Shown here one piece after another: positions 5,941 to 39,037 of a DNA stretch of 40,098 nt. A model generated the notes under the pieces. It had not been told where the DNA came from. It was given only the letters and a program-made list of their open reading frames with translations, and searched no databases. The DNA is from an uncultured Clostridia bacterium (GTDB taxonomy: Bacteria; Bacillota; Clostridia; Oscillospirales; Ruminococcaceae): the NCBI GenBank assembly GCA_945829235.1, contig CALZUA010000028.1:1-40098 (forward strand), in the 5' to 3' direction. Position numbers and translations under genes: made by a program. The stretch's first letter is position 1. Each line of letters starts with the position of its first letter.

Positions 5941-6045
5941 GATAAGGTTACAGGCAAGAAAATCTTTCTAAAACAATATTATCTGTTGTATGATAAGGAT
6001 TTATCAGAACACTTTCAAGTACACAAACTCCGGCGGCAAGTTTAG

Positions 6046-6120
6046 CATAGTCATATCGCAAAGCCTGTCAATGTCAAGGATATGATGAAAGAACTGGCAG
6101 AAATTTTTGCCGAAAAATAA
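6046..6120 (+). pseudogene. C-terminal remnant of a response-regulator receiver
   Basis: Twenty-four codons read from just after an in-frame TAG (6043-6045) to a TAA (6118-6120). They begin HSHIAKPVNVKDM and end in an amphipathic helix, as in the last strand-loop-helix of a receiver (the conserved Lys-Pro followed by helix 5). There is no start codon, ribosome binding site or receiver core upstream, so this is debris of a deleted regulator or hybrid kinase. Confidence 0.55.
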
Positions 6121-6229
6121 CCCGCGCAAGCTTTTCCGGATAAACATTCCTGTCGGCGTGCTCGGTTAACGTTCGTTTGCTTTATAAAGGCGTTTTTCAA
6201 AAGATTTTTGTATTTTTTTGTGAATTATG

Positions 6230-6258
6230 TTGAAAAGTTCCCCGATTTATGGTATAAT
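6230..6258 (+). promoter_or_regulatory. sigma-A promoter of the phosphorelay operon
   Basis: TTGAAA (6230-6235), 17 bp, TATAAT (6253-6258), with TG-like context before the -10. The leader to the first kinase is about 80 bases. Confidence 0.75.
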
Positions 6259-6345
6259 GACTGTGTGCACATAAAATTGAACACTATCATTGTCTTTTGA
6301 GCGGCGCACGGTTTTATCCCGAAATGCGAAAGGCGGCGATACTGC

Positions 6346-8559: not shown

Positions 8560-8561
8560 CG

Positions 8562-8942
8562 ATGAAGAAAAAAATTATGGTTGTTGACGATGACAAGATG
8601 ATTTTGATGATGTGTGAGTTCATCTTGACAAAAGAGGGCTACGAGGTCATTACCGTGGAGTCCGGAAAGCGCTGTCTGGAATATTTGCGCGATGAAAGCA
8701 ATCCCGCTATTGACTGCATTCTTTTGGATATCGAAATGCCGCTTCTCGACGGCTTCAAGACGCTTTCGAGCATTCGTCATTCGGAAAAGCTGATGAAAAT
8801 TCCCGTGATGTTCCTCACGGCTACTGCTACTCCGGATACCGTTAAAGAGGCAATCAGACTTGGCGTAACCTCCTACCTCAAAAAGCCGTTTTTGCCGAAT
8901 GAGCTTACCGAAAGAGTGGCTTCGTTGCTTGCCGACAAATAA
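8562..8942 (+). CDS. CheY-like single-domain response regulator
   Basis: 126 residues, one receiver domain only: acidic pair in VVDDD at 8-11, phospho-aspartate D56 in LLDIEMP, a switch threonine in MFLTATAT and a conserved lysine in YLKKPF. There is no output domain, so it acts as a phosphate shuttle, a phosphate sink or by protein contact. It sits between two hybrid kinases, 2 bases after the first stop, with GAGGGAG about 10 bases before the ATG. A relay between the two kinases, or transfer from the intact Hpt of the downstream kinase, is the obvious inference. Confidence 0.93.
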   Translation: MKKKIMVVDDDKMILMMCEFILTKEGYEVITVESGKRCLEYLRDESNPAIDCILLDIEMPLLDGFKTLSSIRHSEKLMKIPVMFLTATATPDTVKEAIRLGVTSYLKKPFLPNELTERVASLLADK

Positions 8943-8960
8943 TAACAGGGGGCTTTGCCT

Positions 8961-11690
8961 ATGCTGTACAACATACATTTCGAGGCGGCGGCTATTGCTT
9001 ATCTCATTGTTCTCAACATCTACATAAGGCTTCAGTTCACCGATACTTCGCCGAGCAACAAGTACTTTCGGTATCTCGCCGAAATGATGCTTGTTGCGGT
9101 TATGCTGGACGTGATAACCGCAACAACTATCAGCTATCATCAATATGTGCCGATATGGGCGAATGTGGCAATAAACTCCGTGTATTTTGCCGCAGACATC
9201 GTTATGGAATACATTTTCATAATGTACTGCGCGTACGCTACGTTTGGCACAAAGGATAAATGGCATATTCCTCAGATTGCGGGAATATTTGCACTTGTCT
9301 GCACTGTTATACTGATTACGAACCTGTTCACGGGCTGGGTGTTCTATTTTGACGAGAACGGCTATCAGCACGGACCTATTTATATGTTTGTTCACATAGT
9401 GCCGATTGTCGAGGAATCCCTTACGGCGGGAATGATGCTGATAAACTTCAAAAAATTCAACAAAAGACAACGCCTTTCCATTATTCTGTACATTCTGGTT
9501 CTGGCATCCGGTCCTGTCGTGCAAATCCTCTATCCGAACGTGCTGTTTATTCTGTTCACGGTATCTATCGGACTGATGTTGCTGATGTTCGGTATGGAAA
9601 CACCCGACTATCAGGCTCTCAACCGCACCATGAACGAGCTGAGAACAACCCGCGATGAAGCTGAGGAGGCTATGGCCGCCGCACAAATCGCAAGCCAAGC
9701 AAAATCCGAGTTCCTCACAAATATCTCGCACGAAATTCGCACTCCGATAAACGCAATCCTCGGCTACAACGAAATGGTGCTTCGGGATACCGAAAAAACC
9801 GATATCGCGCAGTACTGCGTGAATATCCAGAGCGCCGGAAAAACTTTGCTGTCGATGATTAGCGATATGCTCGACTACACCGAGATTGAAACCGGAAGCA
9901 TAAATATTGAGGAAACAAACTACTCCACCGCGTCTATGATTGCCGATATCACAACCTGCGGAAAATATTATGCCGAGAAGAAGGATATCGAAATCCGCGT
10001 TGACATCGATTCCAACATTCCCAAAATGCTCCACGGCGACAATGCCCGCATCACAAGAATTTTCAGCAACCTGCTGTCAAACTCCGTTAAATACACGGAT
10101 TTCGGTCATATCGATATCGTTATAAAATGGGAGCAGAAAAGCGAATTTACCGGCTGGATATACGCGGAGGTTACCGATACGGGTATAGGACTGCGCGATG
10201 AGGATATCGCAAGAATTACCTCCGCTTTTCAGCGCGCCGATAAAAAACGCAATCAGCATATTCAAGGGCTGGGTCTTGGACTCACCATCGTCACAAAGCT
10301 CCTTTCAATGATGGGTAGCCAGCTCTCTATTAAAAGCGAATACGGCAAGGGTACGTCTATCAGCTTCCGCTTGATGCAGGGTATCGTTGACCCAACGCCG
10401 CTCGGAAATGTGGACGAGCTTAACTGTATTCCCGAAAAAAGCACGTTGCGCCCCGGTTTTACTGCGCCCGATGCAAGACTGCTTGCGGTTGACGACAACA
10501 GTATGAATTTGGAGCTGTACCGCGGCAGTCTGAAAGATACAAAAATTCAGATTGATACCGCGATTAACGGTGTCGAAGCGCTTGAGCTTATCAGCCGTTA
10601 CAAATACGACCTGATTATTCTCGACCATATGATGCCGATTATGGACGGTATGGAAACGCTTAAAACTATCAAGAAGCAAAATCTTTGTCAGGGCGTGCCT
10701 ATCCTCGTGATTACCGCAAACGCAGTGCCCGGTGAAAAAAGCGTTTACCTCAACGCAGGCTTCGATGATTACCTCTCAAAGCCCGTGTCCAGCCGTCAGC
10801 TTCTCGAGGCTGTCCGAAAGCACCTCCCCGAGAACCTTATCCGTCCCGATAACGCCGGTTCGCTCTTTGATGAAGAGGAAACGTCCGCAGACGGTGCTTT
10901 TGAACGGCTTTCTGCGTTCCTTGATGTAAATTCGGCTATGCAGTTCTGTTGCAACAACGAGGCGCTTTATTTGCAGATTGTCAACACCTATGTTGCGGAA
11001 AATCGGCTGGAGGTTATCCGAAATTACTTTGAGGAAAAGGATTTCGACAACTACCGTATTCAAGTCCACGCGCTGAAAAGCGGCTCTCGGACTATCGGTG
11101 CAGGCGAGTTCTCCGACCGCGCGTTCTCGCTTGAAATGGCGGCAAAAAACGGCGATACCGAGTTTATTCTCGAAAACACCGAGGCGTTGCTCAATGAATA
11201 CAGCGAGCTTCTTGAGCGTATAAAAGCCGCTCTGGACAGCTCTGACGAGGTTGTTGAAAACAGCGGCTTGAGCGTGCTGTATATCGATGACGACTTGATG
11301 TACCGCAGTATGATAAAGCGAATGCTCCGTGACGGCTTTGGCAATATCACGATTAAGCAATCCGCCGAGGAAGCGCTGGATATGCTCAACGCAATATCCT
11401 CCGAAGCGCAGGAAAACGGCACCGCACCCGAGTTGCCGAATATCATTCTGCTTGACCTCAACCTCAGCGGTTCAGACGGGCTTTCCCTGCTCAAAAATCT
11501 GAAAGCAAACGAATTGTACAGCTACATTCCCGTGGTGATTTACACCTCCGATGACGACAGGGAAACTCAGCTGAAATGTCTGCGTGCGGGTGCGGCGGAT
11601 TTCTTTGCAAAGCCCGCTGATTGGGAAATCCTCACCGAGCGTCTGAAGCGACTTGCGGTTGTTCCCGAACAAACAGCTGTTTCTCTTTGA
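8961..11690 (+). CDS. 7TM hybrid histidine kinase, HK-REC-Hpt-REC
   Basis: 909 residues from ATG 8961; AGGGGGC at 8947-8953 is well placed for it but too close to a TTG at 8955. Residues ~6-215 form about seven membrane helices with short loops. A coiled coil leads to HisKA (H257 in [10 protein letters not shown]), HATPase (NLLSNSVKY; GLGLGLTIV), a receiver (D555 in ILDHMMPIMDG), an Hpt domain with intact H703 (VHALKSGSRTIGA), and a second, C-terminal receiver (D832 in LLDLNLSGSDG). A complete His-Asp-His-Asp relay is therefore encoded in one chain. There is no DNA-binding, cyclase or phosphodiesterase output in it or in the operon. The paralogous kinase two genes upstream has the same order but a dead Hpt, suggesting duplication and divergence. 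A strong terminator follows. Confidence 0.93.
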   Translation: MLYNIHFEAAAIAYLIVLNIYIRLQFTDTSPSNKYFRYLAEMMLVAVMLDVITATTISYHQYVPIWANVAINSVYFAADIVMEYIFIMYCAYATFGTKDKWHIPQIAGIFALVCTVILITNLFTGWVFYFDENGYQHGPIYMFVHIVPIVEESLTAGMMLINFKKFNKRQRLSIILYILVLASGPVVQILYPNVLFILFTVSIGLMLLMFGMETPDYQALNRTMNELRTTRDEAEEAMAAAQIASQAKSEFLTNISHEIRTPINAILGYNEMVLRDTEKTDIAQYCVNIQSAGKTLLSMISDMLDYTEIETGSINIEETNYSTASMIADITTCGKYYAEKKDIEIRVDIDSNIPKMLHGDNARITRIFSNLLSNSVKYTDFGHIDIVIKWEQKSEFTGWIYAEVTDTGIGLRDEDIARITSAFQRADKKRNQHIQGLGLGLTIVTKLLSMMGSQLSIKSEYGKGTSISFRLMQGIVDPTPLGNVDELNCIPEKSTLRPGFTAPDARLLAVDDNSMNLELYRGSLKDTKIQIDTAINGVEALELISRYKYDLIILDHMMPIMDGMETLKTIKKQNLCQGVPILVITANAVPGEKSVYLNAGFDDYLSKPVSSRQLLEAVRKHLPENLIRPDNAGSLFDEEETSADGAFERLSAFLDVNSAMQFCCNNEALYLQIVNTYVAENRLEVIRNYFEEKDFDNYRIQVHALKSGSRTIGAGEFSDRAFSLEMAAKNGDTEFILENTEALLNEYSELLERIKAALDSSDEVVENSGLSVLYIDDDLMYRSMIKRMLRDGFGNITIKQSAEEALDMLNAISSEAQENGTAPELPNIILLDLNLSGSDGLSLLKNLKANELYSYIPVVIYTSDDDRETQLKCLRAGAADFFAKPADWEILTERLKRLAVVPEQTAVSL

Positions 11691-11900: not shown

Positions 11901-13658
11901 ATGGCAACTACAGTTATGGGACGAAATCCCGCCACAATCAACAAAAAATACACCGAATACCTTCTGCCGACCGTCCTTACGGCTATGGCAACAAACATCG
12001 CGAATATTGTCGATTCGATGATGGCAGGTAATCTCCTCGGAGTTGATGCGCTGTCGGCTATCAGCATTTTGTCGCCGATATCTCAGCTTTATTTTTCCCT
12101 TACAATAATGTTCGGGCTGGGCGCGTCAAGCATTATTGCCGTTGCAAAGGGCAAAAACGACGCTCAAAAAGCAAACCGAATCTTTACAGCCGAGCTGTTG
12201 GTTCTGGGGATTTTGAGCGTTGTGCTTATCACCGTACAGCTTGTTTTTGCGGACGGAATTTGCTCTCTGCTCATCACGGGTGACGATACGGTTCACGCGC
12301 TTGCTTACGACTACTACATACCGTTCATAATCGGCACGCCGATTCAGCTTTTCCTTTTGTGCGCGATTTATCTTGTCCGCGCCGACAACCGCCCGCGCTT
12401 CTCTTCAAACATAATCATCATCGCAAATGTAGTAAATCTCGGGCTGGATTATGTGTTTATGGGCGTTCTCGATATGGGAATAAAAGGCTCGTCGTGGGCA
12501 ACCGTGGCGGGAAATCTGGTCGGATTTATCATTCTGCTGACGCATTTTATCTCGGGGAAAAGCACGGTTCGCTTTGATTTTTCCGTGCTGAAAAAGCCGA
12601 GGGAGTTCTTTGGAATTGTCGGCGAATTTTTCACGGTTGGCTTGTCGGGAGCGCTCGGAACAATGCTGATTACCGTGAAAATGTTCTTCCTCAACACCAT
12701 TATTCTGGATATCGGCGGTTTCGACGGTATGATATCATACTCGGTTTGCCGACCGTGCCAAATCCTGATTTCAATGTTTATCACGGGCGCGTCGCAGACT
12801 ATGATTCTTATCACAAGCGTCTGCCTCGGCGAAAAGGATTATGACGGTATACGCTATGCATTCCGGCGAGCGTTTTCCGTGCTCGCGGTTGCAAGTGCCG
12901 TGATAACGCTCGGTCTTTGTGCAATGTCCGAGATTTTCATAAAGATGTTCGGCATTGTCACGGAACACGATATCGCAAACGCAATGCCCGCGTTGCAGAT
13001 AAACGCGCTTTCCCTGCCGTTCCTCGCGCTGTCGTTTTTGCTTTTGTACTACTATATGTCAACAAAACGCAAAGCCCTTTCAACAACAATCGCCGTGCTT
13101 AACGGAATTGTTCTTCAGATACCGTCGTCGCTTATCTTGGGAAATCTTTTCGGTATAAACGGCGTGTGGTGGTCGTTTGTTGCCGCGCAGGTTGGAACGG
13201 TTATTGTTGTTTATATAATCACCCTTGTTATCAGGAAAAAATCAAAGGGCAAATACAAAAACTTTTATCTTCTCGACACAAACGACAATGATGAAATCAC
13301 ATCGATTTCGTTCAAGTCCACAAAGGAAAACGCTTCGGCAATTCCGATGTATCTCGAATCGTTTCTCGTTTCTCACGGCACGGAGAAAAATAAAGCAAAC
13401 CGCGTTGCCGTGGCGATTGAGGGATTTTTGGGTAATCTCGCGCAACACAATTTAAACAAAAGGGACGCGGATATCGATATCCGTTTACTGAGCAACGCCG
13501 AGGAAATTATCATCTCAATCCGAACCAACGGCAAGCTCTTTGACTTCACCGCCGAGGATAGTGAGGAAATGTCCGATATAAGCGTGGTTAGGGCAATCTC
13601 AAAAAGCGTTGAATATTCAAGCGTTCTCGGCTTCAACAGGCTGATAATTAAAATTTGA
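11901..13658 (+). CDS. MATE-family exporter with C-terminal HATPase-like domain
   Basis: Residues ~1-450 form the twelve hydrophobic helices of a MATE (NorM/DinF-type) drug/sodium or proton antiporter, with the usual early segment TNIANIVDSMMAGNLLG. Classical MATE proteins end near 450-460 residues; this one has 585. The extra ~120 residues resemble the RsbW/anti-sigma-type HATPase fold: EGFLGNLAQHN looks like the E...N box, and the end ISVVRAISKSVEYSSVLGFNRLIIKI-type segment resembles the last helix and strands, although the glycine-rich lid is poorly preserved. ATP binding is therefore uncertain. RBS GAGGT precedes the ATG. The NRPS starts 15 bases after its stop, so it is the likely exporter of the peptide product, perhaps gated by its cytoplasmic domain. 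Confidence 0.85.
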   Translation: MATTVMGRNPATINKKYTEYLLPTVLTAMATNIANIVDSMMAGNLLGVDALSAISILSPISQLYFSLTIMFGLGASSIIAVAKGKNDAQKANRIFTAELLVLGILSVVLITVQLVFADGICSLLITGDDTVHALAYDYYIPFIIGTPIQLFLLCAIYLVRADNRPRFSSNIIIIANVVNLGLDYVFMGVLDMGIKGSSWATVAGNLVGFIILLTHFISGKSTVRFDFSVLKKPREFFGIVGEFFTVGLSGALGTMLITVKMFFLNTIILDIGGFDGMISYSVCRPCQILISMFITGASQTMILITSVCLGEKDYDGIRYAFRRAFSVLAVASAVITLGLCAMSEIFIKMFGIVTEHDIANAMPALQINALSLPFLALSFLLLYYYMSTKRKALSTTIAVLNGIVLQIPSSLILGNLFGINGVWWSFVAAQVGTVIVVYIITLVIRKKSKGKYKNFYLLDTNDNDEITSISFKSTKENASAIPMYLESFLVSHGTEKNKANRVAVAIEGFLGNLAQHNLNKRDADIDIRLLSNAEEIIISIRTNGKLFDFTAEDSEEMSDISVVRAISKSVEYSSVLGFNRLIIKI

Positions 13659-13673
13659 TAAGAGGTGCTCAAA

Positions 13674-16600
13674 ATGAATAATCAGAAAAAGACTGTTCTG
13701 TCAAAAACCGAATACGGAATTTATGTTGACTTTGCGCAAAATCCTCAAAGCACGGCGTATGCTGTCGCGCGTAATTTTTCTTTTGACAAGGACACCGATG
13801 TCGAAAAGCTGAAAAAAGCCGTTGAAAAGGTAATCGACAATCACCCGTATCTCAAATCCCGCCTCAGCTTTGATGAAAACGGAAATGTCTGCAAGTGCAT
13901 TTTCGACGAGCCCGCGGCTGTTGAGGTCAAGGAAATGCGCTCGGCGGACTTTGACAAGCAGGCGCTTATTCTGCCGTTTGATTTGATGAACGACAGGCTT
14001 TACAGGTGCTGTATCGTCAAGACGGAATGTGCGGTACTGCTATGTCTGAACTTTCACCACATCATTTTTGACGGGTTTTCCGTGCGTGTTCTTATTGAAG
14101 ATGTAAACAAAGTGCTAAACGGAGAGCCGCTCGAGCCTGAGCTTTTCACGGGAAATGACGTTTCCGAGGAGGAGGTTGAACGCCGCTCTACGCCCGAATT
14201 TGACGAGGCGAAAAAATATTACGAGTCCGTTTTCGGCGGGCTGGAGCTTGAATCCGTTCCGATTAGCGACAAGAACGAAGGCAATCCCAAGGTCAGGAAA
14301 ATCCGCTTCGATTTCAGCGCGTTCAATGCCGATGATATCAAAAGCTTTGCCCACGCTCACGGTATAAAAACAAGCGCGCTTTTCACGGGTGTGTTTGGGT
14401 TTGTTTTGGCAAAATTCGCAGGTGCGGAGGAGAGCCTGTTCTCGACAATCTTCAACGGCAGAAGCCAAAAACTTGCGAAAAGCTGTGGAATGTTCGTCAA
14501 GACTTTCCCCGTTTACTGCAACGAAAAAACCGATGATACCGCGCAGTATCTCCGCGGCATCGATGTTCAGCTTGACAATAACCGAAAATACGACTTGTAC
14601 TCCTACGCGGACATTTGCGCGGATTTGCAGATAAATCCGCAGGTTCTTTTCACATATCAGGGCGACGTTTTGCATAGCGTAAACTGCGGCGGACAGCAGG
14701 TTGCTGTCGAGAGAATTGACTCGACCGACCCGAAATCGGCGATAACGTTCGAGGTGTACAGAGAAAACGGCGGTTTCTTTGCAACGCTTGAATACAGGGT
14801 TGACTTGTACGAGGAGGAAACAATTCTGATTTTCGCGCGTTGCTTTGAAAAGGCGGTTTGCGAGTTCCTAAACAAGCAGAATTTGAGCGAAATTTCACTC
14901 GCCGACAGCGAACAGCTAGCCCTTATCGACAGCTTTAACAAGACGGAAAATGCCTACGATACAAGCAAAACCGTTGTTGATTTGTTCCGTGAGCAAGCGG
15001 CGGCAAACCCCGAAAATACTGCGGTTGTGTACCTCGACAAGCGTTATACATACAAGCAGGTTGACGAGATTTCCGACAGGATTGCGGGGTATATCTCAGC
15101 GCTCGGTATCGGCAGAGAGGACGTTGTGTCTATCCTAATTCCGCGGTGCGAGTATATGGTTATCGCGTCAATGGGCGCGTCAAAAGCCGGTGCCGCGTAT
15201 CAGCCGCTTGACCCGTCTTATCCGTCCGAGCGACTTGAATTTATGCTCAAGGACGCGGACGCAAAGCTGTTGATTGCAGACAAACAGTTGCTTGAACGTG
15301 TGCCGAATTACAGCGGAAAAGTGTTGCTTTTGGAGGAAATCCCCGCGCTCCCCGAGTGTACGAAAATCCCCGAAGCACCCAAGCCGCAGGACTTGTTTAT
15401 CCTGCTCTACACCTCGGGTTCAACGGGCGTGCCGAAGGGCGTTATGCTCGAGCACGGAAATATTGCGTCCTTCTGCAACTGGTACAGAAATTACTACAAT
15501 TTAACGGCGCAGTCGAGAGCCGCCGCTTACGCAAGCTTCGGTTTTGACGCGAATATGATGGATATGTACCCGACGCTCACGGCGGGCGCGGCGCTGTATA
15601 TCATCAGCGAGGATATCCGCCTTGACCTGATGGCTATGGAGAAATTCTTCAACGAAAACGAAATCACCCATAGCTTTATGACAACTCAGGTCGGCAGACA
15701 GTTTGCACTCGAAACTAACTGCAAGAACTTGAAATATCTCTCGGTGGGCGGTGAAAAGCTGGTTCCCACAAATCCCGAGAAGAGCTTTGATTTCGTCAAT
15801 ATTTACGGTCCTACCGAGTGTACAATTTGTGTAACCTCATTTGAGGTTGACAAGAATTATCTTCGCGTACCGATAGGAAAAGCCCTCGATAACACCAAGC
15901 TCTATGTTGTCGATAAACACGGCAGAATTTTGCCGCCGTGCGTTCCCGGTGAGCTTTGGATTGCGGGTTACGGCGTGTCGAGAGGTTATCTGAACCGTCC
16001 CGAGCAGACCGCGAAAACCTTTATCCAAAACCCGTTCACCGATGAAATGGGCTACGAGCGCGTTTACAGAACCGGTGATATCGTGCGTTATCTGCCCGAT
16101 GGAAACATCGATTTTGTCGGCAGAAACGACGGTCAGGTGAAAATCCGCGGCTTCAGAATTGAGCTTTCCGAGGTGGAAAAGGTTATCCGCGAATTTGACG
16201 GGATAAAGGACGCGGCTGTTATTGCGCGCACTCTTCCTTCGGGTGGACAGTCCATAAATGCGTACATCACCGCCGATGAAAAAATCGATATCGCAAAGCT
16301 CAACGAGTTTATCGAGAGCCGCAAGCCTTATTATATGGTTCCCGAAGCGACTATGCAGATAGATGAAATTCCGCTCACGGTCAACGGTAAGGTTGACAAG
16401 AGAAAACTGCTTGAAATCAAGCCCGCTCCCAAAGAACAGGCCGACAGTGCCGCTGTTTCAAAGCCTTTGACGGTGCTTGAAAAGAAGCTTTCCGAGATTG
16501 TCGCGAAAATTATCGGGCACAACGAGTTCGGCGTTTCCGATGACCTTTTGCGCGCGGGAATGAACTCGCTGTCTATCATCAAGCTTGCCGTTGAGCTGAA

Positions 16601-19600
16601 CAAGCAGTTTGGCTTTGAGGCAAAGGTCAAGAAGCTGATGAAGGGATTTTCGGTTATTACGCTCGAAAACGAGATTCAGGAATTTATCCTGAGCGGGCAT
16701 TTCTCGGTTCAATCGCAGAAAATGCAAAATGCACGCAAAGCCGCTTACCCGCTGTCAAAAACTCAGCTCGGCGTGTATCTCGACTGTATGCGAAACCCGT
16801 TCAGCACGCTTTACAACATTCCGGCAATGCTCAAATTCCCGAAAACAGTCGATGTCAACCGGCTCTCCGACAGCGTTAAGACGGTAATTCTCGCGCACCC
16901 CTATGTTTTCACTCACCTCACAACTCAAAACGATGATGTTGAGCAGGTTTATCCCGAAAAATCCGAAATTGAAATCCCCGTTAAAACTATTACGGAAGAG
17001 GAACTTGCCGAGCTGAAAACCGACTTTGTTAAACAGTATAATCTGCAAAAAGCTCCGCTTTTCAGAATTTTGCTCGTTCAAACCGAGGAAAATGTTTATA
17101 TCCTGCTTGATTTCCACCACCTCATTTTTGACGGCGCTTCGCTGAATATACTTTTAACTCAGCTCAAAACCGTGTACGAGGGCGGCGAGGTTAAGCCCGA
17201 GGAATATACCTATTTTGATTATGTTGAGGACGAGATTAAGGCTGAAAACGGCGAGGATTATCGCGCCGCCGAGCGTTTCTTCGATGAAATGCTGAGGGAC
17301 TTTGAGTCTGCGTCCGAGATAACTCCCGACCTTGGCGGGTTGCCCGAAAACGGCGTTTGCGGTGAGGCTGTTGTTCCGTTTGAGATGCCGATTTTCGAGG
17401 AATTTTGCGCCAAAAACGGCGTAACCCCCGCTCAGCTTTTCCTCGCGGGTTCATTCTACGCGGTATCGCGCTTCGTGAACAGCCGAAACGTTTTCCTCAG
17501 CACAATCAGCAACGGCAGAAGCGATATGCGGCTTACGGACTGCTTCGGTATGTTCGTCAAGACTTTGCCCGTGGGAATCGAGGTTGAGGACATTTCCGCG
17601 CTCGATTTTGTTCAGAAAACAAAGGCTGTGTTTACGGGCGCAATCGAAAATGAAATCTATCCTTACGCGAAAATCTGCACGAAATTCGGCTACGCACCGA
17701 ACATCATGTACGAGTATCAGCTCGGTGTTACTGACGAGCTTGTTATTGACGGAAAAACTGTTGAGAAAAATATTCTCGAGCTCGAAAAGTCAAAATTCAA
17801 GGTTTCTATCCGCATCGAAAGCCACAACGGACAGCCTTGCGTTGTCATTCACTATAACGACGCGCTTTACTCAAGCGAGCTTATGGCAACGCTTGCAAGC
17901 TCGATTTTGAACACGGTTAAGCAGATTGTCGGCAACCCTAGCGGCAAAATCAGAAGCGTTTCATTGCTCGATGATGAACAGCTCCGCGAAATCAAGAGCT
18001 TTTCGTCAACGCTTCTTGCGCCGGTTGAAGATGAACTGCTCCACAAAATGTTCGAGAAACAAGCGGCAAAAACTCCCGACAAAAACGCGCTTGTTGCCGG
18101 CGACAAAACGCTTTCTTATGCGGAGCTTGACCGCCTCGCGAACATCACCGCAAACTCGCTTATCGCAAATGGCTTCAAAAAGGGCGGGAAAGCGGTTGTG
18201 CTCCTTGAAAGAACCTCGAAATTCTTCACCACGATTTTCGGTATCCTCAAAGCAGGCGGCGCGTTTATTCCCACCTGCCCCGATTATCCGAAGGAGCGTA
18301 TCGACAGCATTATCGAGGACAGCGAAGCGGATTTTGTGATAACCGAGGGAGATTTGCTCGGTGCTTACGACAAAACCGTGAATGTTGACGAGCTTCTTGC
18401 GGGCAACAACTCCGAAAATCCCAACGTTGACGTTTGCGGCGAGGATTTGGCTTACCTCATCTACACCTCCGGTTCAACGGGCAAGCCGAAGGGCGTTATG
18501 TTGCGCCACAAGGGAATTTGCAACTACTTGACGTACAGCAACGCCAACACTCACGTTAAGAACATAGTTGACAAGGGCAGCGTTTACGGCTCGGTTACAA
18601 CCGTTTCGTTCGATATGTCGCTCAAGGAAACTGTTTTGTCGCTCTGCAACGGCTTGACGCTTGTTTTCGCCGATGATGAGCAGACGGTAAATCCCATCGC
18701 GCTTGCTCGGTTGTTGAGGGAAAACAATGTTGACGTGTTCAACTCAACGCCGTCACGTTTGCTTCAATATATGGAGCTTGACGAATTTGCCGAGGCTATG
18801 GCGAACTGCAAGGTTATCCTCTCGGGCGGTGAAAAATACCCCGACAAGCTCCTCAAACTCCTGCGCGAAAAGACCTCGGCGACAATACTGAATACCTACG
18901 GACCAACCGAAATTACCGTTTCGTCCAACTGCAAGGACTTGACCAATGCCGATGAAATCTCAATCGGAAAGCCGCTTATGAACTACATCGAGCACATTGT
19001 CGATACCGACGGAAATCTGCTCCCCGTGGGTGTTGTCGGCGAGCTTTTGATATCGGGTATCGGTGTTGCAAAGGGCTACAACAAGCTCCCCGAACAGACG
19101 AAAAAAGCGTTTATCGAGTTCAACGGTGAGCGCACCTACCGCTCCGGCGACTACGCAAAATGGACGAAAAACGGCGATGTCATTATCCTCGGCAGAACCG
19201 ATAATCAGGTTAAACTGCGCGGTCTTAGAATTGAGCTGGGTGAGATTGAAAAGTGCCTGTCGAACATCAACGGAGTAAAGAGCGCGATTGCCCTTATCCG
19301 AAAGGTGAACAAAGCGGACGCAATCTGCGCGTATTTTACCGCGGAAACTCAGCTCAGCGAGGAGTTTATCAGAAGCGAGCTGGAAAAATCGCTCACCGAT
19401 TATATGATACCGACAGCGTATGTTCAGCTTGAAAGTATGCCGCTCACCCCGAACGGCAAAATCAACACAAAACTGCTCCCCGAGCCGATTGCCGCAACCA
19501 AAAAGAACGGCACCGAAGCTAAAACCAAGTTTGAAAAGACGCTCTGCGATATTTACGCAAAGGTCCTCGAGCTTGACAAGGTGTACGCAAACGACAGCTT

Positions 19601-20951
19601 CTTCGATATCGGCGGAAATTCGCTTACGGTAACGAGAATTGTCATACTGGCAAACAAGGCGGGAATTGACATCTCCTACGGCGATGTTTTTGCAAATCCC
19701 ACTCCCGCGGCGCTTGCAAAGCTGTTTGATAAAGACGCGCAGGAAAACGAGCTTGACGATTTGGGCAATTTTGATTACAGCGAAATCAACAAGCTCCTCG
19801 CTCAGAACAACCTCGACTGCTTCAAAAACGGCGAAAAACAGGAAATCGGCGATGTGCTTCTCACGGGCGCGGCGGGCTTCCTCGGTATTCATATTCTGCA
19901 CGAGCTTATTCACGGTTACAACGGAAAAATCTACTGTATGCTCCGCGACAAGAGAGAAAATTCAGCTGAATCGCGGCTTAACTCGGTGTTCTACTATTAC
20001 TTTGAGGAAAATCTCAAGGAGAAATACTCCGACAGAGTTGTCGTTTTAAACGGCGATGTTACCGACCGCAAGTCATTTGACAAGTTCCTTGAGTTCAGGA
20101 TTGATACGGTTATCAACTGCGCGGCAAACGTCAAGCATTTCTCAAAGGGCACGGATATCGAGGACGTCAACCTTTACGGCGCGCTGAATACCGTGGATTT
20201 CTGCAAGCGTGCAAACGCGCGGCTTATCCACGTTTCTACGATGAGTATCGGCGGAATTTTTGTCGGTGAACAAGGCGATGTCACAAAACTTCAAGAAACT
20301 CAGCTTTATTTCGGACAGCAGGAATCCTCGAAATACACGATGTCAAAATTCCTCTCCGAGCGCGCAATTCTCGACGAGGTAACGCGCGGCTTCAACGCAA
20401 AAATAATGCGCGTTGGCAACCTCTCCGCAAGAGAAATCGACGGTGAATATCAGATAAATTTCACCACAAACACGTTTATGGGCAGACTTAAATCAAACCT
20501 GATTATCGGGAAATATCCGTATGAGATGATTGAAAAGCCGTTTGAGCTGTCGCCGATTGATTATGTCGCAAAGGCAATTCTCCTCCTCGCGCAAACCCCG
20601 AAGGAATGTACCGTTTTCCACCCGTTCAACAACCACACGCTGATGATGGGCGACCTTTATATGGAAATGGACAGAAACGGGCTTCACTCCGAGGCGGCGG
20701 AAAATGATGAATACGAAAAGGCGCTTGACGAAGCAAAGCAAAATCCCGAAAAGGCAAAAATTTTGTCGAGTATGATTGCTTATCAGAATATGGCGCACGG
20801 TCAGAAGATTTTCCCCGTTGAAAAGAGCAACAAGTACACAATGCAGGTTCTTTACCGAATGGGATTCCGCTGGCCCGTAACCTCGCACGATTATATGAAA
20901 CGCTTCATAAAAGCGCTCAAGGGCTTGGGCTTCTTTGATATCAAGCTCTAA
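13674..20951 (+). CDS. two-module NRPS, C-A-T-C-A-T-reductase
   Basis: 2425 residues, complete. Order: C1 (HHIIFDG, H128/H129), A1 (YTSGSTGVPKG near 579; IYGPTEC; YRTGDIV; NGKVDK near 903), T1 (AGMNSLS, S965 for phosphopantetheine), C2 (HHLIFDG, H1148/H1149), A2 (YTSGSTGKPKG near 1596; TYGPTEI; YRSGDYA; NGKINT), T2 (IGGNSLT, S1983), and a terminal thioester reductase from ~2058 with TGAAGFLG for NAD(P)H and Y2221-x3-K2225. The reductase should release the dipeptide as an aldehyde or alcohol. The N-terminal C domain implies a starter that caps the first residue with an acyl group, which would block cyclisation to a pyrazinone. ATG 13674 is preferred over GTG 13665, which overlaps the Shine-Dalgarno AAGAGGTG. 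No phosphopantetheinyl transferase is seen in the window. Confidence 0.93.
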   Translation: MNNQKKTVLSKTEYGIYVDFAQNPQSTAYAVARNFSFDKDTDVEKLKKAVEKVIDNHPYLKSRLSFDENGNVCKCIFDEPAAVEVKEMRSADFDKQALILPFDLMNDRLYRCCIVKTECAVLLCLNFHHIIFDGFSVRVLIEDVNKVLNGEPLEPELFTGNDVSEEEVERRSTPEFDEAKKYYESVFGGLELESVPISDKNEGNPKVRKIRFDFSAFNADDIKSFAHAHGIKTSALFTGVFGFVLAKFAGAEESLFSTIFNGRSQKLAKSCGMFVKTFPVYCNEKTDDTAQYLRGIDVQLDNNRKYDLYSYADICADLQINPQVLFTYQGDVLHSVNCGGQQVAVERIDSTDPKSAITFEVYRENGGFFATLEYRVDLYEEETILIFARCFEKAVCEFLNKQNLSEISLADSEQLALIDSFNKTENAYDTSKTVVDLFREQAAANPENTAVVYLDKRYTYKQVDEISDRIAGYISALGIGREDVVSILIPRCEYMVIASMGASKAGAAYQPLDPSYPSERLEFMLKDADAKLLIADKQLLERVPNYSGKVLLLEEIPALPECTKIPEAPKPQDLFILLYTSGSTGVPKGVMLEHGNIASFCNWYRNYYNLTAQSRAAAYASFGFDANMMDMYPTLTAGAALYIISEDIRLDLMAMEKFFNENEITHSFMTTQVGRQFALETNCKNLKYLSVGGEKLVPTNPEKSFDFVNIYGPTECTICVTSFEVDKNYLRVPIGKALDNTKLYVVDKHGRILPPCVPGELWIAGYGVSRGYLNRPEQTAKTFIQNPFTDEMGYERVYRTGDIVRYLPDGNIDFVGRNDGQVKIRGFRIELSEVEKVIREFDGIKDAAVIARTLPSGGQSINAYITADEKIDIAKLNEFIESRKPYYMVPEATMQIDEIPLTVNGKVDKRKLLEIKPAPKEQADSAAVSKPLTVLEKKLSEIVAKIIGHNEFGVSDDLLRAGMNSLSIIKLAVELNKQFGFEAKVKKLMKGFSVITLENEIQEFILSGHFSVQSQKMQNARKAAYPLSKTQLGVYLDCMRNPFSTLYNIPAMLKFPKTVDVNRLSDSVKTVILAHPYVFTHLTTQNDDVEQVYPEKSEIEIPVKTITEEELAELKTDFVKQYNLQKAPLFRILLVQTEENVYILLDFHHLIFDGASLNILLTQLKTVYEGGEVKPEEYTYFDYVEDEIKAENGEDYRAAERFFDEMLRDFESASEITPDLGGLPENGVCGEAVVPFEMPIFEEFCAKNGVTPAQLFLAGSFYAVSRFVNSRNVFLSTISNGRSDMRLTDCFGMFVKTLPVGIEVEDISALDFVQKTKAVFTGAIENEIYPYAKICTKFGYAPNIMYEYQLGVTDELVIDGKTVEKNILELEKSKFKVSIRIESHNGQPCVVIHYNDALYSSELMATLASSILNTVKQIVGNPSGKIRSVSLLDDEQLREIKSFSSTLLAPVEDELLHKMFEKQAAKTPDKNALVAGDKTLSYAELDRLANITANSLIANGFKKGGKAVVLLERTSKFFTTIFGILKAGGAFIPTCPDYPKERIDSIIEDSEADFVITEGDLLGAYDKTVNVDELLAGNNSENPNVDVCGEDLAYLIYTSGSTGKPKGVMLRHKGICNYLTYSNANTHVKNIVDKGSVYGSVTTVSFDMSLKETVLSLCNGLTLVFADDEQTVNPIALARLLRENNVDVFNSTPSRLLQYMELDEFAEAMANCKVILSGGEKYPDKLLKLLREKTSATILNTYGPTEITVSSNCKDLTNADEISIGKPLMNYIEHIVDTDGNLLPVGVVGELLISGIGVAKGYNKLPEQTKKAFIEFNGERTYRSGDYAKWTKNGDVIILGRTDNQVKLRGLRIELGEIEKCLSNINGVKSAIALIRKVNKADAICAYFTAETQLSEEFIRSELEKSLTDYMIPTAYVQLESMPLTPNGKINTKLLPEPIAATKKNGTEAKTKFEKTLCDIYAKVLELDKVYANDSFFDIGGNSLTVTRIVILANKAGIDISYGDVFANPTPAALAKLFDKDAQENELDDLGNFDYSEINKLLAQNNLDCFKNGEKQEIGDVLLTGAAGFLGIHILHELIHGYNGKIYCMLRDKRENSAESRLNSVFYYYFEENLKEKYSDRVVVLNGDVTDRKSFDKFLEFRIDTVINCAANVKHFSKGTDIEDVNLYGALNTVDFCKRANARLIHVSTMSIGGIFVGEQGDVTKLQETQLYFGQQESSKYTMSKFLSERAILDEVTRGFNAKIMRVGNLSAREIDGEYQINFTTNTFMGRLKSNLIIGKYPYEMIEKPFELSPIDYVAKAILLLAQTPKECTVFHPFNNHTLMMGDLYMEMDRNGLHSEAAENDEYEKALDEAKQNPEKAKILSSMIAYQNMAHGQKIFPVEKSNKYTMQVLYRMGFRWPVTSHDYMKRFIKALKGLGFFDIKL

Positions 20952-30779: not shown

Positions 30780-30807
30780 GGCGGCTCCGAGCTGTTTCGG
30801 AACCGCC
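30780..30807 (-). terminator. terminator of the radical SAM-Nudix gene
   Basis: GGCGG-C-TCCGA pairs with TCGGA-A-CCGCC; on the minus strand the odd position is a permitted U-G wobble. It is followed on that strand by TGTTTTGTT. The plus strand also has six T after the stem, so it may work both ways. Confidence 0.7.
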
Positions 30808-30812
30808 GTTTT

Positions 30813-32972
30813 TTATTTCTTCTTGAAAAGCTTTGCCGGACGGTGCCCCGCGCCCGTTATAAACTCATCGGTTTCCTCAACAAAATCCGAAACCTTCCGC
30901 CTGAAATTTGCGGAAAGCACGGAAATTCCGCCAACCGTTTCCATTACGCGCTGAAGGCTTGCGAGGGTGAATTTTTCGGGGAGAAAATCAAAGATGATGT
31001 CAAAGTTCCCGATGCAATTCCTGAGCTTTGAAAGCGCCGCCGCAATAATTGCCGCGTGGTCAAAAGCAAGTCCGTCGCTTTGAATTATCTCGAAGCGAGC
31101 CTCACCGAATTTTCTGTCCTTTTCGCGCAATTTTGCCGTGAGCACAATCTCGCCGCAAGCAAGCGTCAGAATATCCGCTCCGTCCTCGCTCTCAAAATCA
31201 ACGTCAAACCATTTCGCGTCAATCGCGTCATCACCGCCCATCGCCTTAACATTTTCCTCGGTGATAATGCTTGCGAACGCGTTTGAAATAATTCTTCCGC
31301 GCGGGTCACGGTTTGGCTTGCTGAAAACGCCCACGGGCAAAATTGCCGACGGAGTTACGTTTGTTTCCTCGGTAATCTCCCGCAACGCGCATTCCTCAAC
31401 AGTTTCATCAGCCCTCAAAAATCCTCCCGGCAATGCCCACCTGTTCACAAACGGGTGCTCACCGCGCTTGATAAGCAAGAGCGACAGCTTTGCGCTCCCG
31501 TCCTTGCGGTAGTTGTCGTCATCGCTTGTGCGGATTGCAAACGCCGCGATATCGCAAGCCACGGACGGTCGGTCGTAATTGTTGATATTGTACGCGGAGA
31601 GGAACAACTCCTCGTCCGTCTTTTCCGAGAAATGCTGATTTGCAAACGCCCGTTTCAGCTCCTCCTTGGATTTGTCTGAGTAAAACAGCGGTATAATGCC
31701 GTTTATGTGGTCCGAGCCGCGTTCCGTGAGATAAATTCGGTTGCCCTTTATCTCCATAAAACCGTTCTCGAGAACAAATTTCACTTCTTCCTCAAAAACC
31801 TTCGTGAAATCCAAACCAAACCGCTTTTTAAAGCAATCAAGGTCGATGAACGCAAAATAAAATGCAACCGAAACCATTTTCGCGATGCTTTCCTCAACGG
31901 GGAGTCTGTAAATGTCCTGAATGGGGAATTTTCCGGCATTTACGGCGGCACGGTATCTTTCCATACGCTTTTCCGCGGCACCGAGATTGTACGCGAGATA
32001 ATCGATACCGAAGGACTGCGCGCCAAGTCCCATTCCCAGATACGGCATTCCCTCGATAACCCGCTTTGTGAGATAGTCGCTCGTGCCGTAATCGCCGTCA
32101 ATCCGGCTGAATGTATTCTTTCCGATGTTCGCGGCGTAACCCGCGCCGGTAAGCTCGCTGTAAGCTATTCGGTACTGATACATCGCCTTGTAAACCGAAA
32201 CGCCGCCCGCTTCAAACTCGAGCTTCGTGCCCTTGTAGCGGTTTCTGTACAACGTGATATAATCGGGCGCAAGACCTACCGCGTATTTCAGCGTGTTCCT
32301 GAAATCAACATCGGTTTGGTGCAAAAAGCCGTACATCAGGTCAATGTTGAACCGCTCAAAGCCCGCCGCGCGGATATTCTTAACCGCCTTTTCGTAAACC
32401 GAAGCGCTTCCCTCTCTTCCAAGCTCCGCGAGCAGTTTCTCGGAAACCGCCTGCACACCCATACTTATTCTGCGGTAACCGAGGTCGTAGAGTAGCTTCA
32501 TCTTCTCAGGCTCGTCTGCGGCAATTGCAGGCGTTGTTTCCACGCTGAACACAACTCCGTCCTCGATATCAAAAAGCTCCCGCACGGCTTTGGTGATGCG
32601 CGTCAGATTGCTTGCCGAGAGCTTTGCGGGAGTGCCGCCGCCGAGGTCAAAGCCCGCAATCCTTTTGCCGCGAAGCAACTCGGAGTACATCTTCATTTCC
32701 TTTAACAAAAGCTCGGTGTATTCGCTTTCAATGTCCTCATCGGTGTTTTCGAGAACCGTGTATTCGCAGAATTTACAGCGGGATTTGCAGAACGGAACGT
32801 GTACATACAAGCACAGCTCGTCAACCTTTTTCCACTGCTCCGAGAGGAAACTCTTAATCTCGTTTTCATCGGTGAGCTTATACTCCATAAACGAATGAGG
32901 CGTAAGCGGATAAGCTGTGTTCGCGTAGTGGTGATAAAGCAAGCCGGTTTCATAGATTTCGTTGCAGTTCAT
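30813..32972 (-). CDS. radical SAM (HemW-like) - Nudix - winged-helix fusion
   Basis: 719 residues in one ORF. Residues ~50-400 are a radical SAM domain of the coproporphyrinogen dehydrogenase/HemW group: VHVPFCKSRCKFC with C62, C66 and C69 for the 4Fe-4S cluster, then DLGGGTPA (SAM-binding GGTP) and RISMGVQA. The HemW-type C-terminal part runs to ~460. Residues ~475-640 form a Nudix domain with box G-x5-E-x7-REITEE (GFLRADETVEECALREITEE region, ~513-533). Residues ~655-719 resemble the winged helix of NrtR-type Nudix regulators (FTLASLQRVME...NFRRKV...GHRPAKLF). AAAGGAGG 6-7 bases before the ATG fixes the start. The combination joins a heme-type radical enzyme or chaperone to an ADP-ribose/NAD-sensing DNA-binding module. 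Either half may have lost its ancestral role. The gene is monocistronic. Confidence 0.88.
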   Translation of the reverse strand: MNCNEIYETGLLYHHYANTAYPLTPHSFMEYKLTDENEIKSFLSEQWKKVDELCLYVHVPFCKSRCKFCEYTVLENTDEDIESEYTELLLKEMKMYSELLRGKRIAGFDLGGGTPAKLSASNLTRITKAVRELFDIEDGVVFSVETTPAIAADEPEKMKLLYDLGYRRISMGVQAVSEKLLAELGREGSASVYEKAVKNIRAAGFERFNIDLMYGFLHQTDVDFRNTLKYAVGLAPDYITLYRNRYKGTKLEFEAGGVSVYKAMYQYRIAYSELTGAGYAANIGKNTFSRIDGDYGTSDYLTKRVIEGMPYLGMGLGAQSFGIDYLAYNLGAAEKRMERYRAAVNAGKFPIQDIYRLPVEESIAKMVSVAFYFAFIDLDCFKKRFGLDFTKVFEEEVKFVLENGFMEIKGNRIYLTERGSDHINGIIPLFYSDKSKEELKRAFANQHFSEKTDEELFLSAYNINNYDRPSVACDIAAFAIRTSDDDNYRKDGSAKLSLLLIKRGEHPFVNRWALPGGFLRADETVEECALREITEETNVTPSAILPVGVFSKPNRDPRGRIISNAFASIITEENVKAMGGDDAIDAKWFDVDFESEDGADILTLACGEIVLTAKLREKDRKFGEARFEIIQSDGLAFDHAAIIAAALSKLRNCIGNFDIIFDFLPEKFTLASLQRVMETVGGISVLSANFRRKVSDFVEETDEFITGAGHRPAKLFKKK

Positions 32973-33001
32973 AGAAAAGCCTCCTTTGATATTATCAAGT
33001 T

Positions 33002-33024
33002 GTTATTAACAATTTAATAATAAC
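33002..33024. promoter_or_regulatory. palindrome overlapping the -10 of the radical SAM-Nudix gene
   Basis: GTTATTA (33002-33008) and TAATAAC (33018-33024) are perfect inverted arms with 9 bases between. The right arm overlaps the -10 hexamer (33017-33022). It is a candidate operator, possibly for the protein's own winged-helix domain. AT-richness means that chance is not excluded. Confidence 0.45.
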
Positions 33025-33045
33025 ATATTTTCCGGCTTTTGTCAA
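33017..33045 (-). promoter_or_regulatory. proximal promoter of the radical SAM-Nudix gene
   Basis: On the minus strand TTGACA (33040-33045), 17 bp, TATTAT (33017-33022), about 45 bases before the ATG at 32972. Confidence 0.8.
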
Positions 33046-36876: not shown

Positions 36877-38052
36877 TCAACAGCCGCGTTGCTTTCCCAA
36901 CGCGAATTTCTCCAGCCACGTTATTCTGCTGTGAACCAAATCCGCAATTGCCGCGCGCCGCTTGCTGTCGATGAATAAAATCGTTTTTTCATCGCAAAGA
37001 AAATCGCAGATATCCTTTTCAACGCCGCTCAGTTTCTCAAACTCAACCCAGTCAAACGAGGTCACCAGTTTAAGCTGTTCGAGAAACGTTTTCTTGAACG
37101 GCTTGCAAATCAGGTTGTTGAACAGATTTTCCGCGAAATTGCAGTAGCCGAGCGATGAGCCGCTGTCGTAAATCGGCGCGGCACTCGTCCATTTCAGCGT
37201 GTCGGGGTTTCGCAAAATGCCGAAATTGTTGAAATGCCGGTCCTCGTTCGCGACAAGATAATCCAGCACAAGCATCTCATCAAGCGCGTGCTCAATATCG
37301 GAAAGTCCGTTCTCCTTGCAGAGCGTGACGTAGTGCATATAGTCGTTGTGGTGGTTGGGCTTCGGGCGGATTTTCATAACGTGGAACGCGGTCACAAGCT
37401 CGTTTTCGGGCGTGACAAAATCCTCGCAGGCGCTGTACGGCTCGTCGTTTCGCCACACGAGCGTGTACGGTATATGTGCAATCCCAAGCCGCTCCATTAT
37501 CATCGATGCAATCACCTCGTTAAACGGTTGCTGATGATACGGCGGCTCGCCCGCTTTTATCAGATACCGCTTTCCGTCAATGATTTCCCAGCGCTTTTTC
37601 AGGCAACCCTCGGTTGTTACATCGGGCGAGCAAAGGCTGTCAGCAAGGCTCGGCGGCATTTCCCCGAACAAAAGTCTGCCCATATCCTCGGAAAATGCGT
37701 TGTCGTAAAAATTGATTTTCGACCAAACCAAGTCGCTGTCCATCGGCTTAATCCAGTAAGCGTCAGACAGGCACAGCCCAAAGCTTTCCGGCAGGAAAAG
37801 TCGGGTTGTGCGGACGTTCATTTCGTAGAGCAAATCGCGTATTCTGAAGCGCTCCATAGGCATAGCGCGGTTACGCCACCACGCGTTGAGTTCACCGCGA
37901 TTTACAATTCCGTTCTTGATTCGCACGCCAACCGGAAGGTGTTCAACCGAGAAAATCTCACCGATTTTTTCTATCATACAAGTTGCATCTTTGAGAAAAA
38001 TTTCCGCAACAGGCGTGGTTTTGTGCATTAAAGTGCAGCCTATTATGTTCAT
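36877..38052 (-). CDS. HipA-like kinase-domain protein, leftward
   Basis: 391 residues. The C-terminal two thirds resemble the HipA kinase fold: RYLIKAG with a lysine suited to ATP binding, then PFNEVIASMIMERLGI, the catalytic-loop-like DYLVANEDRHFNNFG (~264-280), and APIYDSGSSLG as the metal-binding segment. The N-terminal ~150 residues are unrecognised and lack the usual HipA N-lobe glycine-rich SxxGxQPK motif. No HipB-type helix-turn-helix antitoxin is adjacent, so a classical toxin-antitoxin pair is not supported; HipA-like kinases can phosphorylate tRNA synthetases or other proteins. ATG 38052 has GAGGG 8 bases upstream; the longer frame from 38109 would start inside the promoter region. 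It is divergent from a second HipA-like gene. Confidence 0.8.
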   Translation of the reverse strand: MNIIGCTLMHKTTPVAEIFLKDATCMIEKIGEIFSVEHLPVGVRIKNGIVNRGELNAWWRNRAMPMERFRIRDLLYEMNVRTTRLFLPESFGLCLSDAYWIKPMDSDLVWSKINFYDNAFSEDMGRLLFGEMPPSLADSLCSPDVTTEGCLKKRWEIIDGKRYLIKAGEPPYHQQPFNEVIASMIMERLGIAHIPYTLVWRNDEPYSACEDFVTPENELVTAFHVMKIRPKPNHHNDYMHYVTLCKENGLSDIEHALDEMLVLDYLVANEDRHFNNFGILRNPDTLKWTSAAPIYDSGSSLGYCNFAENLFNNLICKPFKKTFLEQLKLVTSFDWVEFEKLSGVEKDICDFLCDEKTILFIDSKRRAAIADLVHSRITWLEKFALGKQRGC

Positions 38053-38097
38053 TGAATTCAGCCCTCTTTTCTTTATAGTTTTAAAAAACCTGACGTT

Positions 38098-38126
38098 ATT
38101 ATAACACATAATTCTCGGCGTGTCAA
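38098..38126 (-). promoter_or_regulatory. consensus promoter of the leftward HipA-like gene
   Basis: On the minus strand TTGACA (38121-38126), 17 bp, TATAAT (38098-38103). Back to back with the plus-strand promoter at 38148-38176; the two -35 elements are 21 bases apart, so one regulator could control both. Confidence 0.88.
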
Positions 38127-38176: not shown

Positions 38177-38221
38177 CAAATTGTGGATATTTCGCAAAAT
38201 TTTGTTCAACGGAGGAGAAAA

Positions 38222-39037
38222 ATGCTACCCTTAACCGACCTCACGCATTTGCACTGGGAAGGAATTGAAGCCGGAAAACCAACCACAACCGGCTCTTTTC
38301 TCAAAGCTGTTGCCGATTTGCCCTGCGGCAGAGTTTTCTACAAATTATCGCTTGCGGATATTGTTTTAAACAAAATTATCGGCTACGAGTCGTTTTTCGA
38401 GGTGATTGCATCGAGGTTGTGCCGAGAGCTTGGGATTGAGTGCGTAAACTACGAGCTTATCCGCGCGAAAATTCTCCTCCCGAACAACTCCGAGTGCATC
38501 GAAACGCACCTTTGCGCGTCACGCGATTTCCGAGGAAATTTCAAAAAAGAAACCGCCGAGGGACTTTGCCTGTTGCTGGGAAAGGACGGCGAAACCGCTT
38601 TGGAAACGCTCAGAAGGCTTGGCTTTTCCGATTTCATCGACCGGTTGCTCCTCACAGACTTTTTGATTTGCAACAGGGACAGGCACGGAAAAAATCTTGA
38701 GTTTTACACAAAAAACGGCGCTACAAAGCCCGTTCCGCTGTTTGACAACGGCTTTTCCTTTGTAGCGCCTTATGGGAATAATTTGGAAATTATCGAGAAA
38801 TTCAACCCGCTCAGAGATATGCCCGTGAACAACTTTTTAGGCTCGAAAAGTCTTGAGGAAAATCTGCGGTTAATACAAAAAAACGTGGTTGTAAACAAGC
38901 CGAAAAACGGCTTCAGAACAGAGCTTTTTCGGGATATGGAGGACTTGCCGAGCGTTGTCGGGAACAAGGCTTGGGAGATTTTTGAAAGCAGGTACTTTTA
39001 TGCAAAAGACAGAAAAATTCTTGTTGAAGGACAGTGA
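38222..39037 (+). CDS. HipA-like kinase-domain protein, rightward
   Basis: 271 residues, compact. The first third has VFYKLSLADIV and GYESFFEVIASRLCRELGI, resembling the ATP-binding lobe and following helix. The catalytic segment DFLICNRDRHGKNLEFY (~147-163) matches the HipA-type D-x-x-x-x-N-x-D-R-H-x-x-N pattern, and VPLFDNGFSF (~172-181) matches the metal-binding DxG. It is thus a minimal, intact-looking HipA-type kinase without the N-subdomain-1 of HipA. GGAGGAG fixes the ATG at 38222. Its end overlaps the next gene by 38 bases in another frame, so the two are coupled. It is only distantly similar to the divergent kinase at 36877-38052. Confidence 0.82.
   Translation: MLPLTDLTHLHWEGIEAGKPTTTGSFLKAVADLPCGRVFYKLSLADIVLNKIIGYESFFEVIASRLCRELGIECVNYELIRAKILLPNNSECIETHLCASRDFRGNFKKETAEGLCLLLGKDGETALETLRRLGFSDFIDRLLLTDFLICNRDRHGKNLEFYTKNGATKPVPLFDNGFSFVAPYGNNLEIIEKFNPLRDMPVNNFLGSKSLEENLRLIQKNVVVNKPKNGFRTELFRDMEDLPSVVGNKAWEIFESRYFYAKDRKILVEGQ

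Follow-up and report, generated by a model that had tools for sequence, protein, structure and literature searches.

The window (the whole stretch of DNA analysed, 40,098 nucleotides of a contig from an uncultured Clostridia bacterium) encodes a protein in which a HemN-like radical SAM enzyme is continued, in a single reading frame, by a Nudix domain and an NrtR winged helix (Table 1). We consider it probable, with a chance of roughly two in three, that this fusion is a self-repressing regulator-enzyme of pyridine (vitamin B3) salvage. The case is built on sequence: on domains and motifs, on the gene context of relatives, on an operator shared with them, and on the fused winged helix being the sole one of NrtR type found in five of the six genomes that have the fusion. 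DNA binding, the ligand, repression, and the activity and substrate of the radical SAM part are predictions from these features.

Table 1. Coordinates of the fusion gene, its parts and signals, and of a Prevotella plasmid cluster; positions are those of the window unless a locus is named.
Feature	Position	Strand	Remarks
Three-part fusion, HemN-like radical SAM + Nudix + NrtR winged helix	30813..32972	minus	719 aa ORF
HemN-like radical SAM part + HemN_C, residues 1-457	31602..32972	minus	CxxxCxxC = C62/C66/C69
NUDIX domain, Pfam residues 495-592	31197..31490	minus	RExxEE intact; final box G = N538
NrtR winged-helix DNA-binding domain, residues 661-719 (Pfam 661-717)	30816..30992	minus	
Operator-like 25-bp palindrome TGTTATTATTAAATTGTTAATAACA	33001..33025	minus	left arm overlaps -10 box
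Second overlapping palindrome, one mismatch to search pattern	32987..33011	plus	makes three half-sites in a row
Promoter-like site of fusion gene, TTGACA-17-TATTAT	33017..33045	minus	consensus match
Terminator-like hairpin	30780..30807	minus	between fusion 3' end and feoA
Prevotella sp. E2-28 plasmid cluster	L063 1782-8233		ADP-ribosylglycohydrolase, NrtR-family regulator, DUF6717, two DUF1810, two radical SAM genes

Three domains in one open frame

The frame opens with ATG and holds no internal stop. Pfam recovers every part above its cut-off: Radical_SAM at residues 56-230 (3e-19), HemN_C at 376-420 (1.5e-6), NUDIX at 495-592 (8.5e-16) and NrtR_WHD at 661-717 (1.1e-15). The first-pass annotation had seen radical SAM, Nudix and NrtR-like winged-helix domains in this one protein, with an intact CxxxCxxC and a near-complete Nudix box, and each of these observations stands: C62, C66 and C69 are present, the RExxEE positions are intact and, with G517, E523, R531, E532, E535 and E536 kept, the sole departure from the box is its late G, replaced by N538. 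Compared by sequence with solved structures, residues 463-718 score best with 2fml and residues 52-429 with E. coli HemN 1olt.

Distribution of the fusion and of its relatives

The three-part fusion is found with an open frame in six genomes, which belong to four genera of one bacterial family: the window's own genome, G250, G263, G108, G715 and G707. Among the 297 same-family genomes searched, end-to-end identity to the window fusion is 67% for G250, 66% for G263 and 59% for G108, and the linker between HemN_C and Nudix is conserved in the four fusions aligned across it. The possibility, raised when the gene was first described, that a sequencing error had removed a stop between two ordinary genes is refuted by the continuous frame of all six fusions; an artefact of sequencing or assembly is ruled out as their source because six genomes have the architecture.

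Within its genera the distribution of the fusion is patchy. It is present in 1/43 members of the window's own genus (three others have HemN-like matches of 27-28% only), in one of three genomes of the genus of G250, and in 1/38 for the genus of G263, where 17 others match solely in the Nudix/NrtR part. For the genus of G108, the radical SAM part occurs in 11 of 30 genomes and the three-part fusion in three of the 30 (G108, G715 and G707). A sample of the order (394 genomes, E 1e-55) gave a single match, the own genome, and a sample of the phylum (348 genomes, E 1e-50) gave five, the own genome and four at 174-181 bits. These four are HemW-like and carry HNxxYW; closer relatives outside the own genome were absent from both samples at the cut-offs used.

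A phage origin was rejected: IMG/VR returned 57 pattern-matching stretches, none of which encodes a relative, and 36 records of the phage collections match, the ten listed matches being 25-28% identical. A plasmid origin was rejected likewise, as 733 plasmid records match with 24-32% identity in the 20 listed, the best being from Prevotella; the protein of this Prevotella relative, used as query, found only itself at 1e-30.

Ten relatives are radical SAM-Nudix proteins without the winged helix, nine of them intact. In the tenth, G714 (L094), the frame breaks after ~410 residues, either by decay or by assembly error. In a tree of Nudix domains the six fused ones cluster with 21 of the 25 NrtR rows (support 91/95, just under the starred level), eight of the nine radical SAM-Nudix domains stand apart (100/99), and that of L005 is a long branch elsewhere. 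The trees bearing on winged-helix history, in which L005 and G108 are long branches, did not separate gain from loss.

NAD genes alongside the relatives

Genes were called as pncA, pncB, nadE or NrtR by reading translations by eye and by tblastn with the L004 and L005 genes as references. At L004, from a Ruminococcus MAG, the order is NrtR, radical SAM-Nudix, pncA, pncB; at L005 it is NrtR, pncA, nadE, radical SAM-Nudix, pncB. Over the ten radical SAM-Nudix loci a stand-alone NrtR gene is present in seven and pncB in six. Neither is alongside at G246, G703 and G717, and the contig of G718 stops just after the radical SAM-Nudix gene. As for the fusions, pncA lies 3' of the gene in G250 (with nadE next), G263 and G108. 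None of the searched NAD genes stands alongside the fusions of G707 and G715, and they are absent among the Pfam-scanned neighbours of the window fusion. The tie to NAD genes, suggested at first from the NrtR-like part, is thus borne out in relatives, by pncA, pncB and nadE.

Two small ORFs recur at the NrtR/radical SAM-Nudix/pncB loci. One of ~100 aa (L090 6652-6972) lies between NrtR and radical SAM-Nudix in G718, G711, G713 and G720; the other, of 230-243 aa (L089 2726-3418), lies 5' of pncB in G720, G711 and G714. Scanned against Pfam and NCBIfam, the two gave no match.

The Prevotella plasmid relative of the radical SAM part (33% identity, hhalign E 1.7e-53) has the NTxYPL, DLMYGF and NTFS motifs in common with the window enzyme. 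This distant relative is the second radical SAM gene of the Prevotella sp. E2-28 cluster (Table 1), which, as one locus, would lend independent support to an ADP-ribose/NAD role of the radical SAM family.

An operator-like palindrome shared with NrtR genes

The palindrome reported earlier at 33002-33024 is real and one base longer on each side. The form taken by its left arm and the -10 box, TGnTATwAT, was searched upstream of 40 genes and found at 26 of them (the window and 25 elsewhere): at all six fusions, at 18 of 25 stand-alone NrtR genes and at two of nine radical SAM-Nudix genes, those of G246 and G717, neither of which is preceded by an NrtR gene. The 25 stand-alone genes are those whose surroundings were in hand and not all NrtR genes (12 of the 38 NrtR-/Nudix-type family matches, eight from a separate search, four from the genus of G108 and one from Prevotella); the scan omitted the partial NrtR gene of G720 and the interrupted radical SAM-Nudix gene of G714. 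The left arm entered the search form and is in part promoter sequence, which leaves the right arm as the test. With the window excluded, the arms are complementary at 140/175 positions versus 436/1050 in slid controls; several of the sites belong to genomes that are close relatives and do not count as independent.

The window's own arms were also used as template against 300 shuffles per gene, the NrtR gene of G718 (47 bases upstream) being omitted as well. Values of p < 0.05 were obtained for four of the six fusions (window included), 18/24 stand-alone NrtR genes and 2/9 radical SAM-Nudix genes. The operator score was not significant relative to shuffles for G108 (p 0.063), G715 (p 0.077) and six of the 24 stand-alone NrtR genes, and the best place in G263 is a shifted one. 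Direct DNA binding by the fusion, put forward earlier as a possibility, appears likely from this operator.

At G246 a short ORF that starts like NrtR (MESEKDF, translated by eye) precedes the radical SAM-Nudix gene, a hint that this locus has lost an NrtR gene but kept the operator. For a fusion that stands alone a target in trans is predicted, and in G707 the next-best operator of the genome, with one mismatch, is found by sequence match at the pncA promoter on another contig. In G703, whose radical SAM-Nudix gene is likewise solitary, the operator is matched exactly ~650 bases 5' of an NrtR winged helix on another contig, a position that would fit the start of its NrtR gene, as expected. Around five further second sites (two in G108, one in G250 and two in the own genome), tblastn detected none of pncA, pncB and nadE.

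Replacement of NrtR by the fused winged helix predicts that no second copy is present, and none was found in five of the six fusion genomes: in the own genome, G250, G108, G715 and G707 the fused copy is the only NrtR_WHD found. G250, G715 and G707 are 83%, 84% and 88% complete, so that in these three the lack of a second NrtR could reflect missing sequence. In G263 the fused winged helix is accompanied by another of NrtR type, ~30% identical to NrtR. A separate NrtR winged helix is present in seven of the eight radical SAM-Nudix genomes searched, and none was found in G717 (89% complete).

The radical SAM part: family and chemistry

The best NCBIfam match of the radical SAM part is the STM4012 family NF006067, with 193 bits for a cut-off of 380. 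HemN TIGR00538 gives 169 bits (cut-off 325), HemW TIGR00539 gives 136 bits (cut-off 205), and the HutW cut-off is likewise missed. By these tests the radical SAM part therefore belongs to none of STM4012, HemN and HemW. CxxxCxxC is present in 15/15 relatives. The HemW motif HNxxYW, present in the four HemW-like proteins of the phylum sample, is absent from all 15; the HemN motif CxxxCxxCxC is incomplete in the fusion, which has Y71 at the position of HemN C71. Together with a HemW-like gene (by similarity only) elsewhere in the own genome, these cut-offs and motifs are the grounds on which orthology to HemN or HemW was rejected.

The first-pass annotation had proposed a heme or tetrapyrrole enzyme of HemN/HemW type tied to NAD status. 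HemN 1olt is indeed the closest solved structure of the radical SAM part, a HemN_C domain is present and feo genes adjoin, but we regard this reading as very improbable: the scores and motifs above speak against it, as do the HemW-like gene elsewhere in the genome, the feo genes, which are probably a separate unit (see below), and the neighbours identified in relatives, which are the NAD genes pncA, pncB and nadE (searched with NAD queries).

The SAM-binding and SAM-II-type positions are retained in the fusion (Y56, GGGTP, E145, R168, D211 and T240), and those for SAM binding are invariant in seven aligned relatives and also in the matching columns of the Prevotella relative. With the SAM-II contact residues of NocN taken from the accessible part of PMC12871812, a mapping by eye on an alignment places NocN Y34, R153 and D196 at Y56, R168 and D211, S225 at T240 and Y96 at D109. 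As most of the contacts given there are kept, the enzyme may use one SAM or two in its radical chemistry; a second SAM bound in the active site would be the mark of a class C radical SAM methylase. In four close radical SAM-Nudix pairs the radical SAM part is under purifying selection, with dN/dS of 0.06-0.10; for pairs with the window the ratio was saturated or not computable.

Alternatively, the radical SAM part might be a sensor and no enzyme of the pathway, with a [4Fe-4S] cluster that signals the state of redox, oxygen or SAM to the repressor fused to it. This is unlikely, because the positions just listed, in so far as that part of the NocN paper defines them, are kept, and because the same part also occurs without the winged helix, beside a separate NrtR, and so has a role of its own.

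The feo neighbourhood and the window's own genome

The gene had been pointed out as lying next to the feo iron operon. The adjacency holds, the feo genes adjoining the fusion on the same strand, whereas a functional iron link finds no support: feo has its own promoter-like site (30625-30597) and the hairpin of Table 1 stands between. Both kinds of signal are consensus matches; in the region promoter-like sites number 8 versus 3.3 in shuffles and terminator-like hairpins 6 versus 4.7, hardly in excess. feo is probably a transcription unit apart from the fusion. A FeoB query on the ORF sets of the relatives, in which ORF picking was incomplete, matched the window only. With feo probably a separate unit and FeoB matched in the window alone among these incomplete ORF sets, the neighbourhood looks incidental, and an iron link via feo was rejected.

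No clear operator other than the fusion's own was found in the window's genome. One scan gave 10 matches versus 10 for the reversed control, four of each being the fusion's own place, and another gave nine versus five, three of each at that place; the weaker matches stand at control level. The pncA-pncB pair of this genome is on another contig and of another type, and no operator was seen there. With that single clear operator, control of NAD genes is no more than predicted for this organism; the window fusion could have been acquired sporadically and regulate nothing but itself. An orphan gene of that kind, regulating only itself and with no NAD role in this organism, would agree with the single carrier among the 43 genus members, the other three matches being merely HemN-like, with the single clear operator place and with the different type of the operator-less pncA-pncB pair. 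We nevertheless hold it to be quite improbable: frame, motifs, promoter-like site and operator are all intact, and the GC (0.505) and GC3 (0.618) of the gene are inside the range of neighbouring genes.

The Rfam scan of the window matched no RNA element. A defence role was rejected, the sole PADLOC match of the fusion being its Nudix part, at 24 bits.

Elsewhere in the window, a two-module NRPS-like protein (13665-20951, plus strand) has two AMP-binding, two condensation and two carrier stretches and ends in a reductase-type NAD_binding_4 domain; a MatE transporter adjoins it (11901-13658). Upstream of both stand three large hybrid histidine kinases (3307-11690, plus strand; ORFs 3307-5940, 6346-8559 and 8955-11690). 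Two divergent HipA_C-like kinase ORFs lie at 36877-38109 (minus) and 38183-39037 (plus), the latter under the Pfam cut-off.

Proposed function

For a regulator-enzyme of pyridine salvage, the reading that we prefer, the following mechanism can be proposed. The C-terminal 270 residues would form a complete NrtR-type repressor, in which the Nudix domain would sense a product of NAD breakdown resembling ADP-ribose, which it might still be able to cleave. The winged helix would bind the 25-bp palindrome over the -10 box of the fusion gene itself and, in relatives, also at pncA or at operons headed by NrtR or the fusion. The HemN-like radical SAM enzyme would belong to this pathway too, its likeliest substrate being a pyridine that feeds pncA/pncB. 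Build-up of the ligand would lift repression, and the enzyme would then be made with its own sensor attached.

More tentatively, and at less than even odds, the radical SAM part may found an undescribed family of NAD metabolism, devoted to the oxygen-sensitive opening or repair of a pyridine for pncA/pncB salvage; in some species it would be joined to an ADP-ribose-sensing repressor to give a self-regulating vitamin B3 scavenger. One candidate would be a nicotinate with an N or C modification, as plant feed may supply.

NAD salvage counts as a well-mapped field, and we know of no step in it with radical SAM chemistry. The setting of the relatives among nicotinamide salvage genes speaks for an as yet undescribed NAD-metabolic enzyme: a conserved radical SAM enzyme in NrtR/pncA/pncB/nadE groups, sometimes fused to the regulator, predicts a new reaction. 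The predicted pathway is testable, in anaerobic gut bacteria, and the operator offers a ready handle on its regulation. The earlier statement that no system of this kind has been described agrees with the literature searched by title and abstract, in which subscription journals are thinly covered: among the matches listed there was neither a description of the fusion nor a paper that brings together NrtR, Nudix, NAD and radical SAM. Radical SAM, Nudix and winged helix do occur together in two papers, whose titles and abstracts do not describe the fusion.

Comparison with known systems

With HemN-like radical SAM proteins (HemN 1olt, NocN 9p2u, STM4012) the fusion has in common CxxxCxxC, HemN_C and the SAM-binding positions. 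It differs from them by its own N-terminal NTAYPL and GKNTFS/GLGAQS motifs and by its NAD gene context, and it scores under the NCBIfam cut-offs of the HemN-like equivalogs.

NadR of enteric bacteria, which combines a repressor with NMN adenylyltransferase and NR kinase, embodies the same idea of a NAD-salvage enzyme acting as its own repressor, with domains unrelated to those of the fusion. In the Nudix-NMN adenylyltransferase fusions (2qjt, 2qjo), which are not known to carry a winged helix, a Nudix domain is likewise joined to an enzyme of the NAD pathway, and no radical SAM part is present.

With the NrtR family (3gz5, M. smegmatis NrtR) the fusion shares an NrtR-type Nudix domain followed by a winged helix in one chain, each above its Pfam cut-off, a palindromic operator (present by sequence, and in the own genome only at the fusion's own promoter), predicted autoregulation and, in its relatives, pncA/pncB/nadE alongside. 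The NrtR model of NCBIfam, NF050029 (cut-off 400 bits), gives 95 bits for the fusion and 121 bits, also below, for the stand-alone NrtR of L004. Impairment of the Nudix box is typical of NrtR regulators, though not universal: the accessible text of PMC4666351 describes it for published repressors, and the box of S. oneidensis NrtR 3gz5, aligned here, is degraded; in contrast, RExxEE is intact in the fusion and in its stand-alone NrtR relatives. The operator sequence of the fusion differs from the Mycobacterium NrtR motif given in the accessible part of PMC6800001. Unlike the NrtR family, finally, the fusion has an N-terminal radical SAM enzyme and has retained the catalytic residues of its Nudix domain.
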